IMG/VR virus record: IMGVR_UViG_3300010430_000018
Span: 18,421 to 82,420 of that record
Length of the DNA: 64,000 nt
Origin: a virus
Reading direction: 5' to 3' (one strand)
A program made the position numbers and the translations under genes. The notes under the pieces were generated by a model that saw only the letters and a program-made list of their open reading frames with translations, ran no database searches and was not told the origin of the DNA. Below are positions 45,980-56,647 of the stretch, in pieces. Each line of letters opens with the position of its first letter. Positions within the stretch are counted from its first letter, which is position 1.

Positions 45980-46231
45980 TTATTTAATTATTAGCTTTCT
46001 ACCAATTCTTTTTACGTATTTATATGTTTTAAGCTCTTTTATCCATCTGTCTATGCTTGATTGACTTGAGCCAGTGTCATCAGCTAATGTACTTATTGAT
46101 GGAAAACATGTTCTGTTTTTATTTGCATAGCAACATAACACGCTATATAATGTTTTAGCACCAATTGATAAATTAGGATCTGTTATTACCTCACGGTTTA
46201 CTATACCAAATCTATTTTTCTTTGTATACAT
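45980..46231 (-). CDS. Winged-helix/HTH_36-type DNA-binding protein
   Basis: 83 residues. L-S-I-G-A-K-T-L-Y-S-V-L-C-C-Y-A-N-K-N-R-T-C is followed by F-P-S-I-S-T-L-A-D-D-T-G-S-S-Q-S-S-I-D-R-W-I. This is the HTH_36 pattern of replication initiators and phage regulators (C-x-P-S-x-x-x-L-A, then recognition helix). It likely binds DNA as a regulator of neighbouring early genes; target unknown. Confidence 0.7.
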   Translation of the reverse strand: MYTKKNRFGIVNREVITDPNLSIGAKTLYSVLCCYANKNRTCFPSISTLADDTGSSQSSIDRWIKELKTYKYVKRIGRKLIIK

Positions 46232-46403
46232 GATCTTTTAATAATCTTAAAAGAGCCATATTATCATCTTTTTCTTTTGCTAACTCAATATCATTAAGTT
46301 TATACATTTCATTCATTGTATAACCAAATGTAGAATTAATTGACTCTTTCTTTTTCCATTGGTTATAGTGTGATCTGATCAGTTCCATTGATAATTTTGG
46401 CAT
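46212..46403 (-). CDS. 63-residue helical protein
   Basis: M-P-K-L-S-M-E-L-I-R-S-H-Y-N-Q-W-K-K-K-E. It overlaps the preceding gene by 41 bases and the HTH gene by 20; Met6 at 46388 would shorten the first overlap. Mostly helical and charged. No family is recognised. Confidence 0.45.
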   Translation of the reverse strand: MPKLSMELIRSHYNQWKKKESINSTFGYTMNEMYKLNDIELAKEKDDNMALLRLLKDHVYKEK

Positions 46404-46914
46404 CTTTTTTATTTTTTAATTGGTTTTCCATTGATTTAACTAATTTATTTAGCTCTCTTGTTTTTAATTTTTTTAATTCAAAAGGACTAGTAGTATCTTC
46501 AATGAATGCAAGGTTACGGTTTTCATCATGATATAGATATTCTATCTTTAACTGACTATATAAAGGATTATACTTATTGTTTGTTGACCAGCTATTATCT
46601 GATATTACTTTTGCATAAACCATATTATCTTCAGGTAGTAAATCCATATCTTTCAGTATATCTTTTTCATATTTACTGCCTTCATGATAACTTGGTGGCC
46701 TTACTTTTACTAAATCATTAGGATATACTAATTCATAATGTTCTTTAGTTAACATAAGTTCTACTACATTTTCTAAAGTACTATCAGACATATTATTAAG
46801 TATAATATTTTTGATATGATCAAAGTTTAAAGGTTCTTGTACACCTTTATTTGATAATATAGTTGATACAATGTTCATTAAGCTTTCTTTTCTAATGCTT
46901 AGTGTATTTGACAT
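46363..46914 (-). CDS. 183-residue protein of unknown function
   Basis: M-S-N-T-L-S-I-R-K-E-S-L-M-N-I-V-S-T-I-L, helical N-terminal half, beta-rich middle with an acidic Asp/Glu loop, basic helical end (L-K-K-L-K-T-R-E-L-N-K-L-V-K). It is the first gene of a small operon that includes the HTH protein and stands downstream of a hairpin-rich intergenic segment. No family is recognised. Confidence 0.5.
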   Translation of the reverse strand: MSNTLSIRKESLMNIVSTILSNKGVQEPLNFDHIKNIILNNMSDSTLENVVELMLTKEHYELVYPNDLVKVRPPSYHEGSKYEKDILKDMDLLPEDNMVYAKVISDNSWSTNNKYNPLYSQLKIEYLYHDENRNLAFIEDTTSPFELKKLKTRELNKLVKSMENQLKNKKDAKIINGTDQITL

Positions 46915-47096: not shown

Positions 47097-47945
47097 TTAT
47101 AATATAAATCTACGTAAATCTGATGGTTCAAATGTATATTCTGGTGTATTGATATAATTCATATCATCCATAGAATACCAAACATCTAAAGTCAGTGGAT
47201 TTAATAATATGTGTTGTTCTTGTGCTGGCATATAACTTTGAGCTAACATATATATTTTATGTCCTGCTTTATTTACTGCCATATCTACTACGGTAATAGC
47301 ATGTCCTGGAAATCCTCCAGTTACAAACACATCACCCGGTTGCATATCCCAATAACTTACTGATTCAGTATCATACTGTTCTATTGAATATGTTCCGGCA
47401 TAACTCCATACAAGATCCAACCATTTTCTAAATGTTTTACAATTATCTTTACGGCTTTTACCTTGTTTAGTTACTATATCACGACCAGCATTAATTGGTG
47501 TTGGATTAGCTCCCTTAAGATAATCTATATAAGAAGTTCTATAACCATTTGTAAATGTAAATTGTAATCTATCTAAGAAACCGCTTGAATAGTTATACGA
47601 TGCTCTAAGATATATAGCTGCATCAGCACAGTGATGTAAATCTCTTGTGCCTATTTCATAATCAAATACTGCTGCATAAATAAAATTATTATGCTTAATG
47701 TTTCCATTATAATATTCAACTTCTGATTTCTCTTTTAATGGGTGAGCTATCAACCATTCAGAGTATGCATCCATATTGTTTCTTTCATAGCCACCTGGTA
47801 CTGTAAATACAGATGAGATTGACTCATGATTCATTTTTTTTCCTTTGTATGTGCTTTGTGCACTTACTCCAAGTACAAATAATAACATTGCTAATACTAT
47901 CAATTGTAATTTTAATACGTTTTTACTATACTTTATATCTTTCAT
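47097..47945 (-). CDS. Exported DUF4846-type protein
   Basis: 282 residues with a signal sequence (hydrophobic 13-28, cleavage near V-S-A-Q at 27-30). The mature protein carries the DUF4846 pattern of Bacteroidota: H-H-C-A-D-A at 104-109, F-T-N-G-Y at 131-135, S-Y-A-G-T-Y-S at 181-187, P-G-D-V-F-V-T-G-G-F-P-G-H-A at 203-216, and L-A-Q-S-Y-M-P-A-Q at 234-242. Cys106 and His215 are positioned like a papain/NlpC-type pair, so it may hydrolyse envelope peptides or amides. The activity is inferred; the family has no established function that I know of. A phage copy of a host-type envelope protein is unusual. Confidence 0.75.
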   Translation of the reverse strand: MKDIKYSKNVLKLQLIVLAMLLFVLGVSAQSTYKGKKMNHESISSVFTVPGGYERNNMDAYSEWLIAHPLKEKSEVEYYNGNIKHNNFIYAAVFDYEIGTRDLHHCADAAIYLRASYNYSSGFLDRLQFTFTNGYRTSYIDYLKGANPTPINAGRDIVTKQGKSRKDNCKTFRKWLDLVWSYAGTYSIEQYDTESVSYWDMQPGDVFVTGGFPGHAITVVDMAVNKAGHKIYMLAQSYMPAQEQHILLNPLTLDVWYSMDDMNYINTPEYTFEPSDLRRFIL

Positions 47946-47961
47946 AATTAAGTGGTGTTAT

Positions 47962-47994
47962 ATAGGAACCTCACTTTTTATGTAAGGTTCCTAT
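47962..47994 (-). promoter_or_regulatory. 10-bp-stem hairpin in the leader of the DUF4846 gene
   Basis: ATAGGAACCT and AGGTTCCTAT form a perfect 10-bp stem around a 13-base loop, ending 16 bases before the start codon. There is no T-run on the minus strand. It may shield the start region or stabilise the transcript. Confidence 0.55.
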
Positions 47995-48003
47995 TATTAA
48001 TAT

Positions 48004-48318
48004 TTATTTTTTCCATTTTACTTCTATTGTAGTAAATGGTAATACTATCATCAAAGAAGTTTTTTGCCAAGCTACTCCTAATCCAATTATTGATTCAAAT
48101 CTTGCATCTATTTTAGGTAATAATATCACCTTATCCATAAATACAGTAAAAAATACTGCATTTAAAATACAAAATATTGACATTGATACTATAATAATGG
48201 TTACAGGCATATATCCTGATCCATATTCATTAAAATATAATGCTGAACTAACTATACCAAGTATTGGTACAATTACTACGTACAATAGTTTAATGAATTT
48301 TTTGACTAAGTGTTTCAT
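48004..48318 (-). CDS. Two-helix membrane protein
   Basis: 104 residues. Hydrophobic helices at about 9-27 (L-L-Y-V-V-I-V-P-I-L-G-I-V) and 36-62 (V-T-I-I-I-V-S-M-S-I-F-C-I-L). A basic N-terminus and a W-K-K end place both ends inside. It is grouped with two lipoproteins and the DUF4846 gene; together they look like an envelope-directed cassette (superinfection exclusion or lysis timing). No family is recognised. Confidence 0.6.
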   Translation of the reverse strand: MKHLVKKFIKLLYVVIVPILGIVSSALYFNEYGSGYMPVTIIIVSMSIFCILNAVFFTVFMDKVILLPKIDARFESIIGLGVAWQKTSLMIVLPFTTIEVKWKK

Positions 48319-48331
48319 CTTGTTTAAAATT

Positions 48332-48802
48332 TTAGTTAATAATATTTACTTCATCTCCTGCATCTATGAACATATTTATGTCATATGGTATTAAGAACTT
48401 ATTCCAAGTATTATCTACTTGATATGTTGTTCTTTGTTGATTAGTAGCATATTGTAATGTTGATATAACAAACGCATCAGCAAAGCTGTTGAGTGTATTA
48501 GCGTCACCATCATAATATGTACTTGCATAATTCATAAATTCTTCTCCTGTAACCGGCATATTAAACGATGTAGCATATACTACAAAATTTGACCAAGCTA
48601 CTATAAGTTTATCTTCTGCAGATACACCATTATCTTCTGACTTATACAACATATATAAATATCTTGTAGTGTCTGTTGTTGGTGCATATACTTGAGAGAA
48701 TAACTTATATTCATCTGGATTACTTTGTACCTCCATTAGAGGCTCCTGTTCACAACTCATAAATGATATTGCAAACAGGAATATTACTAATGATCTTAAC
48801 AT
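48332..48802 (-). CDS. Lipoprotein, 156 residues
   Basis: The start at 48802 is fixed by the overlap with the upstream small lipoprotein stop and gives a classic lipoprotein signal: M-L-R-S-L-V-I-F-L-F-A-I-S-F-M-S-C with the lipobox F-M-S-C at 14-17. After Cys17 come E-Q-E-P (acidic, as in Bacteroidota surface lipoproteins), then Tyr/Asn-rich helical sequence. Likely outer membrane. Function unknown. Confidence 0.65.
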   Translation of the reverse strand: MLRSLVIFLFAISFMSCEQEPLMEVQSNPDEYKLFSQVYAPTTDTTRYLYMLYKSEDNGVSAEDKLIVAWSNFVVYATSFNMPVTGEEFMNYASTYYDGDANTLNSFADAFVISTLQYATNQQRTTYQVDNTWNKFLIPYDINMFIDAGDEVNIIN

Positions 48803-48957
48803 CTTGTATATTTTTGTTTCTTTGCGTTCCAACATTTCTTTTGGTACATAGATTTTTTATACTTTGACGATTTACAGCTTCTGGTTGAACCACAAGACTG
48901 TAATAGTGGTGCTCCTATAAACATAAAGAGCATTAAATAAATGATTTTCTTTTTCAT
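48796..48957 (-). CDS. Small lipoprotein, 53 residues
   Basis: M-K-K-K-I-I-Y-L-M-L-F-M-F-I-G-A-P-L-L-Q-S-C-G is a lipoprotein signal with lipobox L-Q-S-C (Cys22). The mature part is short, basic and contains three more cysteines. Its stop overlaps the start of the next lipoprotein by 7 bases, so the two are translated together, like spanin or immunity pairs. Function unknown. Confidence 0.6.
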   Translation of the reverse strand: MKKKIIYLMLFMFIGAPLLQSCGSTRSCKSSKYKKSMYQKKCWNAKKQKYTRC

Positions 48958-48969
48958 AATTAAGTGGAT

Positions 48970-49254
48970 TTAGTTGTAACTGTTTGCATACGCAAGAAAG
49001 TCCATTGTATGTTGTTCAGTCACTGTTATTAATTGATTTTGTTTTGCTACGAACCTAAGCTCCGGGTTATTCTCTAATTCTATTAAGAGATCTACTAACG
49101 ATGGAGAACCTAACTGTTCACGTTTTACACGACTATGATCCATATCTCCTGTAAAGAAGTTAACGAATAAGTCTTGTTCTCTGCTATATAAGACAATGCC
49201 TATAGCATTACCCCATGTAACGAATTGTTCTGGATTATTTACTTTGATTTTCAT
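48970..49254 (-). CDS. 94-residue protein of unknown function
   Basis: M-K-I-K-V-N-N-P-E-Q-F-V-T-W-G-N-A-I-G-I-V, alternating beta and helix; no signal peptide. First gene of the minus-strand operon downstream of the large intergenic region, so probably an early gene expressed from a promoter in 49255-49330. No family is recognised. Confidence 0.5.
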   Translation of the reverse strand: MKIKVNNPEQFVTWGNAIGIVLYSREQDLFVNFFTGDMDHSRVKREQLGSPSLVDLLIELENNPELRFVAKQNQLITVTEQHTMDFLAYANSYN

Positions 49255-49885: not shown

Positions 49886-50215
49886 TTAGGCTTGTTCAAC
49901 CCAACGCAAGTTTGTTTCTTCCCCTGTGTTTAAATCAATCACAGGATTGTCACTTAGCTGAAAGCCTTTCATTTCATCTCCTGCATTAAGCTTACTTTGT
50001 AGAGCTTTAATTGTTGGATGTTTAGCGTTCATTACTTTATTAGTTTCAGGGTCTATAAGAGATAGAACGCCAAAGGTTATGTTACCTTGAGTTCTTGTTC
50101 CTACTTTCATTCCTGCTAATTCTCCAACCTTGCTTGAGATAGGTTGGTCTGTTACGATGATAGTAGCTGTTCCTGTACTATCATTTACTCTTAATTTTCT
50201 AAAAAATACTGACAT
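49886..50215 (-). CDS. Isolated 109-residue beta-rich protein
   Basis: The ATG at 50215 is chosen: it has an AT-rich leader, and the residues upstream in frame come from the GC-rich intergenic element and do not look coding. M-S-V-F-F-R-K-L-R-V-N-D-S-T-G-T-A-T-I-I-V-T is followed by alternating strands and an acidic C-terminus. It stands alone with its own hairpin terminator, between two structured intergenic regions, so it is likely an early, strongly expressed gene. No family is recognised. Confidence 0.6.
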   Translation of the reverse strand: MSVFFRKLRVNDSTGTATIIVTDQPISSKVGELAGMKVGTRTQGNITFGVLSLIDPETNKVMNAKHPTIKALQSKLNAGDEMKGFQLSDNPVIDLNTGEETNLRWVEQA

Positions 50216-50449
50216 AATTATTATATTTAAATTAATACTTGTTAAAGCAACGGGGGGTATCCCCGTGCCAATTTTTAGCTGGGGATCAGATTGGTAGAAC
50301 CTCTTAAGCACGCCAAACACATAACTTTTAGGGGGGCGTGAGCAAATTTTACATGAGGCGGGGCATATGTTCTGACTCAAAAATTTTTATAGAAATTTTA
50401 AATTTAGTATATTGTTCTTATAGAAGAGTTACTAACTTAAATAAATGTT
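50216..50449. promoter_or_regulatory. Divergent control region with GC-rich dyads
   Basis: This is the turning point between the leftward and rightward halves. Bases 50250-50266 form ACGGGG-5-CCCCGT. CACGCC (50309-50314) pairs with GGCGTG (50335-50340). Four G-runs occur on the plus strand. The motif GCTGGGGATCAGA (50278-50290) recurs with one change at 49536-49548. The flanks (50216-50245 and 50380-50449) are very AT-rich, as expected for promoters. No gene is seen. Confidence 0.6.
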
Positions 50450-51080: not shown

Positions 51081-51196
51081 TTAAGTTTATAAAAGATAAA
51101 ATTAAACGTTTTAGATTTACATACAATACTCTTATGAGAATTAATCTTGGTCAACTAAGAATAACTAAGAAAGGAAAAGTAAAAAAAAATGAATAA
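51077..51196 (+). CDS. 39-residue basic peptide
   Basis: M-I-K-F-I-K-D-K-I-K-R-F-R-F-T-Y-N-T-L-M. The start overlaps the upstream TGA. The end overlaps the lipoprotein start by 8 bases. Amphipathic and strongly basic. Function unknown. Confidence 0.5.
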   Translation: MIKFIKDKIKRFRFTYNTLMRINLGQLRITKKGKVKKNE

Positions 51197-51374
51197 AAAA
51201 ATTATTTCAATAATGTTATGTTGTATGTTATTATTTACTTGTGGTTCATCCAAACCTTCACTAGAAAAAGATGAACAAAAAAAAGAAGTGGTATATGATA
51301 ATGATGATCCATTAATGAATTTACTTTTATCAGCTTTAGTTATTTATTCAATAAAAATATTATTTGCAAGATAA
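51189..51374 (+). CDS. Small lipoprotein with C-terminal membrane helix
   Basis: 61 residues. M-N-K-K-I-I-S-I-M-L-C-C-M-L-L-F-T-C-G-S-S is a lipoprotein signal with lipobox L-F-T-C (Cys18). A charged middle (E-K-D-E-Q-K-K-E-V-V-Y-D-N-D-D) is followed by a second hydrophobic segment (L-L-L-S-A-L-V-I-Y-S-I-K-I-L-F). A lipid anchor at one end and a helix at the other is the shape of a unimolecular spanin bridging inner and outer membranes. A spanin role in the late block with the amidase is plausible but unproven. Confidence 0.6.
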   Translation: MNKKIISIMLCCMLLFTCGSSKPSLEKDEQKKEVVYDNDDPLMNLLLSALVIYSIKILFAR

Positions 51375-52996: not shown

Positions 52997-53917
52997 ATGA
53001 AGATGTTAAAAGTAGGATCATCTGGTCCTAACGTAGTTGTACTTCAAAACAAATTAGGGATAAAAGCTGATGGTATCTTTGGCCCTAATACTGAAAAACA
53101 TGTAGATAGATTTCAACTTACACATAATTTACCTGTTACAGGTATAGTAGATAATGATATGTGGTCATTGTTAATGAATTTACAATTGACTAGACCGGAA
53201 GAAATTGATGAAGATACTGACTTACAAGGTCAGTATTATAAAACAAATTTTGATCAAACAATACATAAACATTATTTACCTAAAGGAGAATATATTAATG
53301 GACCTATAGTCAATGAATATATTTTTTTACACCATACTGCTGGTCATGCCAATCCTCATGCATGTATAGATATGTGGGGTAGAGATTCACGTGGGCGTAT
53401 AGCAACTGAATTTGTATTAGGTGGTATTGATCATAGAAATGGAAATAATGAACATGATGGTACTTTAGTTCAAGCTTTTCCTACAGGTGCACAAGGTTGG
53501 CATTTAGGTAAAACAGGATCAGGTTGGATGAACCGTCATTCAGTTGGTATAGAGATTTGTTCTATGGGGTATTTAACTCATGATAATAGAACATATGTAA
53601 ATTCACTATGTCAAGAAAATCAAGTTACTTTATTAAACGAACCATTTAATGGACATAATAAGTTTCATAGTTACTCAGAAGCTCAAATAAAAGCAACAGA
53701 GAAATGGATAAGGTATATAGGTGAAAGAGATCAAATTGACATTAGATTAGGATTAAAACAATTTATACAAAAGCATGGACCTACTAAAGGATTTGGATTT
53801 CAAAAAGATGCATATTTAGGTAATGTAAAAGGATTATTAACACATACAAATGTTAGGAAAGATAAAACTGATTGTTATCCTCATCCTGATTTAGTTGATA
53901 TGATATTAAGTTTATGA
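52997..53917 (+). CDS. N-acetylmuramoyl-L-alanine amidase endolysin
   Basis: 306 residues. Residues 1-60 are a peptidoglycan-binding_1 domain (V-G-S-S-G-P-N-V-V-V-L-Q, G-I-F-G-P-N-T). The amidase_2 fold has H-H-T-A-G at 112-116 (zinc His112), G-W-H-L-G, V-G-I-E-I-C-S-M-G, and H-T-N-V-R-K-D-K-T-D-C at 283-293 supplying His283 and Cys293. The enzyme cuts the bond between muramic acid and the peptide at lysis. Export would need the holin-like protein, since no signal peptide is present. It could also be tail-borne. Confidence 0.88.
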   Translation: MKMLKVGSSGPNVVVLQNKLGIKADGIFGPNTEKHVDRFQLTHNLPVTGIVDNDMWSLLMNLQLTRPEEIDEDTDLQGQYYKTNFDQTIHKHYLPKGEYINGPIVNEYIFLHHTAGHANPHACIDMWGRDSRGRIATEFVLGGIDHRNGNNEHDGTLVQAFPTGAQGWHLGKTGSGWMNRHSVGIEICSMGYLTHDNRTYVNSLCQENQVTLLNEPFNGHNKFHSYSEAQIKATEKWIRYIGERDQIDIRLGLKQFIQKHGPTKGFGFQKDAYLGNVKGLLTHTNVRKDKTDCYPHPDLVDMILSL

Positions 53918-56371: not shown

Positions 56372-56647
56372 ATGGCAGAAAAAATTATTCCAGTAGGACA
56401 AAAATTATTAATCAAAGAAATAAAGGCAGAAACTAAAACTGCATCAGGACTTATTATTCCAGAAATAGCACAAAAAATAACTTATAGAGGTAGAGTTGTT
56501 GGAATAGGTGATTCTGTAAAAGAAATAAAAATTGGAGATGTGGTGCAATATGCTGAACATGCTATGCCAACTCCAATGAAACATGATGGGCAAGAACACC
56601 TATTATTGCAAGTAGGGGACGTATATGCCATCATAAGAGATGAGTAG
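56372..56647 (+). CDS. groES: GroES-like co-chaperonin
   Basis: 91 residues, a full-length chaperonin-10 fold: V-G-Q-K-L-L-I-K-E-I near the N-terminus, the mobile-loop region with S-G-L-I-I-P (residues 25-30), G-R-V-V-G-I-G-D-S-V, I-G-D-V-V-Q-Y and the C-terminal D-V-Y-A-I-I-R-D. Phages use GroES analogues to fold the capsid protein in the host GroEL chamber (T4 Gp31 does so). The stop overlaps the TerL start by 8 bases. Confidence 0.9.
   Translation: MAEKIIPVGQKLLIKEIKAETKTASGLIIPEIAQKITYRGRVVGIGDSVKEIKIGDVVQYAEHAMPTPMKHDGQEHLLLQVGDVYAIIRDE

Follow-up and report, generated by a model that had tools for sequence, protein, structure and literature searches.

Four envelope genes in a crAss-like phage

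What do four consecutive envelope-directed genes contribute to a marine crAss-like phage when they lie within its replication operon, on the strand opposite its endolysin? The window analysed here is a stretch of 64 kb out of an 82,420-bp virus record (IMGVR_UViG_3300010430_000018), with the terminase and portal matching PHROG families that also hold crAss-like phages (E = 2.3e-60 and 3.2e-94 respectively), and the best matches of the terminase being crAss-like phages. The minus strand encodes a DNA polymerase, a DnaB-like helicase, a primase-like Toprim protein, and a uracil DNA glycosylase, and the plus strand the terminase, the portal, a GroES-like protein, and an endolysin with PG_binding_1 and Amidase_2 domains (52997..53917).

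The four genes stand near the start of the leftward genes, adjoining a divergent region at ~49.3-50.4 kb, and all lie on the minus strand. They encode LPsmall, a 53-aa basic lipoprotein (48796..48957), LPbig, a lipoprotein of 167 aa as called (48332..48835), TM104, a 104-aa protein with two predicted transmembrane or hydrophobic segments (48004..48318), and a 282-aa DUF4846 (PF16138) protein, a predicted papain/NlpC-like cysteine hydrolase (47097..47945). The syntenic genes on either side show no envelope signal; upstream of the lipoproteins is a 94-aa protein that belongs to no family (48970..49254, minus strand), and downstream of DUF4846 are a 183-aa protein (46363..46914, minus strand) and a further gene (46212-46403). 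A first-pass annotation had described the four reading frames, two of them overlapping lipoproteins, as a phage envelope cassette of host origin that could block superinfection or aid lysis in Bacteroidota. The frames are present with the coordinates and order it gave and, because the close relatives L001-L011 keep the same order over whatever part of it their contigs cover, the arrangement is not due to chance. Promoter and terminator scans gave no excess over shuffled sequence. A second copy, 37% identical, of the window protein encoded at 49886-50380 (minus strand) is found at L018:5762-6097, and represents a duplication.

Family, export and predicted active site of the DUF4846 protein

To our knowledge, no activity has been measured for any member of the DUF4846 family, and the function of the family is not known. 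The window protein is a full-length member, with its match to PF16138 (E = 5.2e-70, 236 bits against a gathering cut-off of 37) spanning residues 44-279 and profile positions 2-239 of 239, and its N-terminus carries a Sec signal peptide of about residues 1-30, ending ...VSAQ; both the identity and the export proposed in the annotation are thereby borne out. It shares the invariant Cys, GD, GH, and Q of the family, however the residue before the Cys is His, in place of the usual Gln, in the window protein and its closest relatives.

The Cys106/His215 pair, which had been likened to that of a papain-type hydrolase, also stands, since the Cys, His, and Gln described below are invariant in all 71 relatives. 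In an AlphaFold model of the protein (pLDDT 89.9), from the secondary structure of which the layout of the active site was judged, the predicted nucleophile Cys106 (codon 47628..47630, minus strand) opens helix 106-120, the “GD” motif Gly204-Asp205 (codons 47331..47336, minus strand) stands just before strand 206-209, the predicted catalytic His215 (codon 47301..47303, minus strand) opens strand 215-225, and Gln236 (codon 47238..47240, minus strand), a candidate third polar active-site residue, ends strand 230-236. Gly204 and Asp221 are likewise invariant in the 71-sequence alignment, with Asp205 kept in 70 of 71 sequences (one D205N). This order of elements, a Cys-bearing helix, a GD strand, a His strand, and a polar residue on the following strand, is that of the papain/NlpC core, and a published survey has classed DUF4846 as papain-like, and NlpC/P60-like by its GD motif (PMC10318531).

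Foldseek comparison of the model with the PDB and BFVD gave nothing at E<=0.001, with the papain-like protease staphopain among the weak matches (E about 0.7), and sequence searches of the PDB with the single protein and with a profile returned noise only. Alignment by hhalign to Flavobacteriaceae NlpC/P60 proteins places GD on GD and His on His with P = 0.0026 and a probability of only 12%, and P-values of single pairs are easily small; a pairing of LPbig with NlpC also scored, and was discarded as its score came only from the shared lipoprotein signal. Given these weak Foldseek and hhalign results, a papain-like layout is held to be likely on the basis of the model, and membership in NlpC/P60 proper is not established. 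The DUF4846 protein shares with the NlpC/P60 papain-like peptidoglycan hydrolases (Pfam clan Peptidase_CA) the order of core elements and a signal peptide, but differs from them by extra N-terminal and middle segments and by the lack of a significant fold or profile match.

Distribution of DUF4846 in bacteria and phages

The DUF4846 protein has no PHROG match, and none among 50,697 INPHARED phage records, a set from which the nearest kin of the window are possibly excluded. A single-protein query of genome contigs gave nothing and an alignment query was required, with the best 80 of 416 confirmed genome loci lying mostly in Bacteroidota and Bacillota. The gene is present in about a fifth of the Flavobacteriaceae genomes sampled (29/150), and the family is widespread in Bacteroidota, in keeping with the link to that phylum drawn in the annotation. 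As the bacterial neighbourhoods are conserved only within Flavobacterium, with none pointing to peptidoglycan, they allow no guilt by association. NZ_CP084075.1, a 2.1-Mb Fusobacterium vincentii “plasmid” of PLSDB, is by its size suggestive of a mislabelled chromosome.

In viral contigs, a profile-guided scan detected 71 DUF4846 loci, which gene context splits into at least four crAss-like lineages, in agreement with terminase and portal family wherever tested; contigs L160, L162, L165, L166, and L178, some of which may be host DNA, were left out of these classes. Lineage A is the window type. In lineage B, DUF4846 is followed by one to three genes, with LPsmall close by, and then by the DNA polymerase. 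In lineage C, DUF4846 shares a strand with a holin gene (PHROG holin, E = 3e-27; the GTA_holin_3TM match, at E = 4e-4, falls short of the Pfam cut-off), both preceding terminase and portal, and in most records DUF4846 ends on the first base of the holin gene, a one-base overlap; the exceptions are L135-L137 and L143-L144, where another gene stands between the two. In lineage D, DUF4846 lies upstream of GroES, terminase, and portal, preceded by an Amidase_2 endolysin in L176 and L177 and an M15 endolysin in L167 and L168, with no endolysin adjoining it in L169, L174, and L175. At their N-terminus, the lineage D proteins carry no more than a short hydrophobic stretch.

Two further features of these contigs were observed. 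The gene just before DUF4846 in lineage C (L138:1768-2673, L142:5108-5989, L149:5093-5983) has no Pfam match and shows a Cys...His pattern (GAGCSTYACGIMREAG...SHSTIQ), and may encode another cysteine hydrolase. The GroES-like co-chaperonin gene of the window (56372-56647, plus strand) lies just before the terminase; lineage D contigs have related genes close to theirs, and L149 has a GroEL-like reading frame (398-1954).

In the DUF4846 tree, lineages A, B, and C group together in a single phage clade (SH-aLRT 99), set apart within PF16138 and away from the sampled bacterial genes, with lineage D apart from it. The phylogeny proposed as a check on the annotation thus gives no support to a cassette of host origin as stated there. 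At least four changes between virus and bacterium are counted on this quick tree, the deep support of which is weak. Together with the separate position of lineage D and the differing gene contexts, these changes make it probable that phages acquired DUF4846 on more than one occasion and that it shifted position within them. As lineage C is a single clade, its neighbourhood counts as one event; the placements beside lysis genes, each representing one or two evolutionary events, carry some weight.

A core trio and an accessory gene

LPsmall, LPbig, and TM104 occur together in close relatives wherever the contig covers them, and some more distant lineage A phages have no recognisable LPbig. In L199, L200, L203-L205, L210, L211, L216, and L228, the three genes are followed by a gene of 170-183 aa with no DUF4846 between, the counterpart of the 183-aa protein coming directly after TM104, and no DUF4846 was found elsewhere in the parent records of these sister phages (the longest being 102 and 110 kb, and the records possibly incomplete). 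On a tree of core genes (five or six flanking genes) the presence of DUF4846 is patchy; L229 and L232, for example, lack it and their sister L220 has it. From these trio-only sister phages and the patchy presence it follows that DUF4846 is an accessory module and the trio the more constant core block, the proposed cassette thus consisting of two separate units. Pairwise distances of lineage A DUF4846 correlate with those of core genes (r = 0.59-0.91), so vertical descent with losses fits better than repeated fresh gain.

DUF4846 is under purifying selection, with dN/dS values (Nei-Gojobori; some dS near saturation) of 0.16-0.25 against 0.14-0.19 for the helicase; by the same method, and with the same saturation of some dS, values are 0.4-0.6 for the 183-aa protein and go up to 0.3-0.8 for the fast-evolving TM104.

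LPsmall and LPbig each possess a lipoprotein signal and lipobox, and neither has a Pfam, NCBIfam, or PHROG match above cut-off. The true start of LPbig is probably at 48802 rather than at the ATG at 48835, judging from the homologues in L005, L010, and L018, the signal of which begins at the Met matching 48802; this start gives a normal lipoprotein signal, and the overlap with LPsmall noted in the annotation holds, with an extent of ~7 nt instead of 40. Behind the lipobox, LPbig shows a near-invariant C-E-[Q/K]-E-P (deviants being C-Q-E-E-P in L126 and C-E-K-E-S in L216), which is acidic and resembles, without matching exactly, the surface-lipoprotein export signal of Bacteroidota, C-X-K-(D/E)2-X (PMC5080379). 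The mature part is hypervariable, with LPbig identity at 26-58% between phages whose flanking core genes mostly keep 71-97%, making it the fastest-changing gene of the region. The structure model of LPbig is of moderate confidence (pLDDT 73), with Foldseek giving nothing significant against the PDB. An LPbig of 288 aa at L117:963-1826 apparently contains the LPbig domain twice, with the second copy diverged.

LPsmall is recognised by the motif KCWNAKKQKxTRC, which is kept even between lineages A and B and lost in L005, L010, L018, and L020. A scan of viral contigs found 49 LPsmall loci, the DUF4846-free contigs named above being among them; 150 Flavobacteriaceae genomes yielded weak fragments at noise level only (E about 0.003-0.008), lending nothing to a host origin of this gene either. 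A candidate LPsmall in Bacteroides phage DAC15 (E = 0.6) was rejected, as it is antisense to a large gene.

Proposed function of the block

The reading that we prefer, to which we give about equal weight for and against, is that of an exported DUF4846 envelope hydrolase accessory to a lipoprotein block that alters the cell surface. With regard to substrate, timing, exclusion, and what the lipoproteins and TM104 do, we infer the following course of events. The DUF4846 protein, made by the phage and exported via the Sec pathway, would use a putative active site of Cys106, His215, and Gln236 to cut an amide or peptide bond in the envelope of the host, peptidoglycan being the most likely substrate. 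Its gene would represent an accessory insertion at the edge of the more constant three-gene envelope block, with TM104 on one side and the 183-aa gene on the other. Since the window gene shares the replication strand, its early or middle expression is likely by analogy with crAss001 and phi14:2, which express their replication genes in the early or middle phase and their lysis genes late (PMC10136315). A strong cut in the wall at that stage should bring on premature death of the cell, so limited remodelling or weakening, before the separate Amidase_2 endolysin acts, is favoured; such remodelling would help later lysis or hinder the DNA entry of rivals. The lipoprotein block probably alters the surface, with LPbig as its variable, specificity-bearing part, and, if made early, may exclude rival phages. 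In favour of this reading are the family match, the predicted layout and invariance of the active site, the published classification, the purifying selection, and the lysis genes that adjoin DUF4846 in lineages C and D. Counting against it are the missing fold match, bacterial neighbourhoods that do not point to peptidoglycan, the position of the window gene opposite the late and lysis genes, the single-clade origin of the lineage C arrangement, the lineage D records with no adjoining endolysin, and the short hydrophobic N-terminus of the lineage D proteins.

The whole minus-strand block may alternatively be a superinfection-exclusion device, with the lipoproteins jamming or masking a receptor and the DUF4846 protein trimming a surface protein or the wall, which we consider doubtful. 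The rapid change of LPbig behind a near-invariant lipobox is what is expected of a protein matched to changing receptors, the replication operon in which the block lies belongs to the early or middle genes in those Crassvirales that have been studied (PMC10136315), and there is firm precedent in small lipoproteins of phages that jam TonB-dependent receptors (PMC9586334). However, DUF4846 comes and goes while the trio persists, lineages C and D have DUF4846 but no trio, the location in the replication operon, with no receptor-binding protein gene seen adjoining, does not favour exclusion, a PADLOC defence-system scan gave no match, and the LPbig model offers no fold match at its moderate confidence. 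An exclusion role would suit the variable, lipid-anchored LPbig, the better candidate, more than the DUF4846 enzyme, with T5 Llp as the analogy (PMC9586334). LPsmall and LPbig are, like the exclusion lipoproteins Llp of T5 and Cor of T1/phi80, small and phage-encoded, but bear no recognised similarity to them (Pfam, NCBIfam, PHROG), and their genes lie in the replication operon.

A second alternative, which appears quite improbable, is an unrecognised lysis cassette made up of a class II-like holin (TM104), a spanin-like lipoprotein of the outer membrane (LPsmall), and a secreted second endolysin (the DUF4846 protein). In its favour, TM104 has ~100 aa and two transmembrane segments, and DUF4846 is the direct neighbour of a true holin in lineage C and of endolysins in some lineage D records; however, the block shares the strand of the replication genes, an endolysin is already encoded on the late strand, TM104 was not found in the lineages that pair DUF4846 with lysis genes, and LPsmall has no recognised inner-membrane spanin partner. 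DUF4846 is encoded with a holin or endolysin in a late unit, as in phage endolysin/holin modules, in lineage C and in four lineage D records, whereas the window has it ~5 kb from the Amidase_2 endolysin and on the other strand. The suggestion that the locus aids lysis therefore keeps indirect backing from other lineages, and the replication-strand position of the window gene tells against it. A role for DUF4846 as sole lysin was rejected, with Amidase_2 present in most searched lineage A records and in one lineage C record; in a pooled scan of two records, one from lineage C and the other from lineage D, lysozyme, M15, or Amidase_2 domains were detected. It is also conceivable, if unlikely, that DUF4846 acts on another envelope target, for example as a protease, lipid amidase, or transacylase, and not as a wall hydrolase; the papain-like superfamily is functionally broad (PMC10318531) and no fold match fixes the substrate, but the GD motif is typical of the wall-acting cluster and the neighbours are lysis genes in two lineages.

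On present tests, the window protein is set outside any established lysis or exclusion family. A bolder reading, which we consider doubtful, is that DUF4846 provides crAss-like phages with an unrecognised mobile exported wall hydrolase, which would serve either in a lysis module or in an early envelope block closing the cell to rivals, in the latter case partnered by a hypervariable lipoprotein and a small transmembrane protein. The one paper found to name DUF4846 (PMC10318531) already makes the papain-like call and goes no further than suggesting a wall role; the gene recurs among crAss-like phages and adjoins lysis genes in two of their lineages, which provides a testable function for the family. 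A limited literature search found no superinfection-exclusion mechanism for Crassvirales, for which the hypervariable LPbig behind its fixed lipobox is a concrete candidate.

A 61-aa lipoprotein with a C-terminal hydrophobic segment is encoded near the endolysin of the window (51189-51374, plus strand) and is conserved in relatives (L018:3853-4032, 38%), and may represent a very short one-piece spanin.
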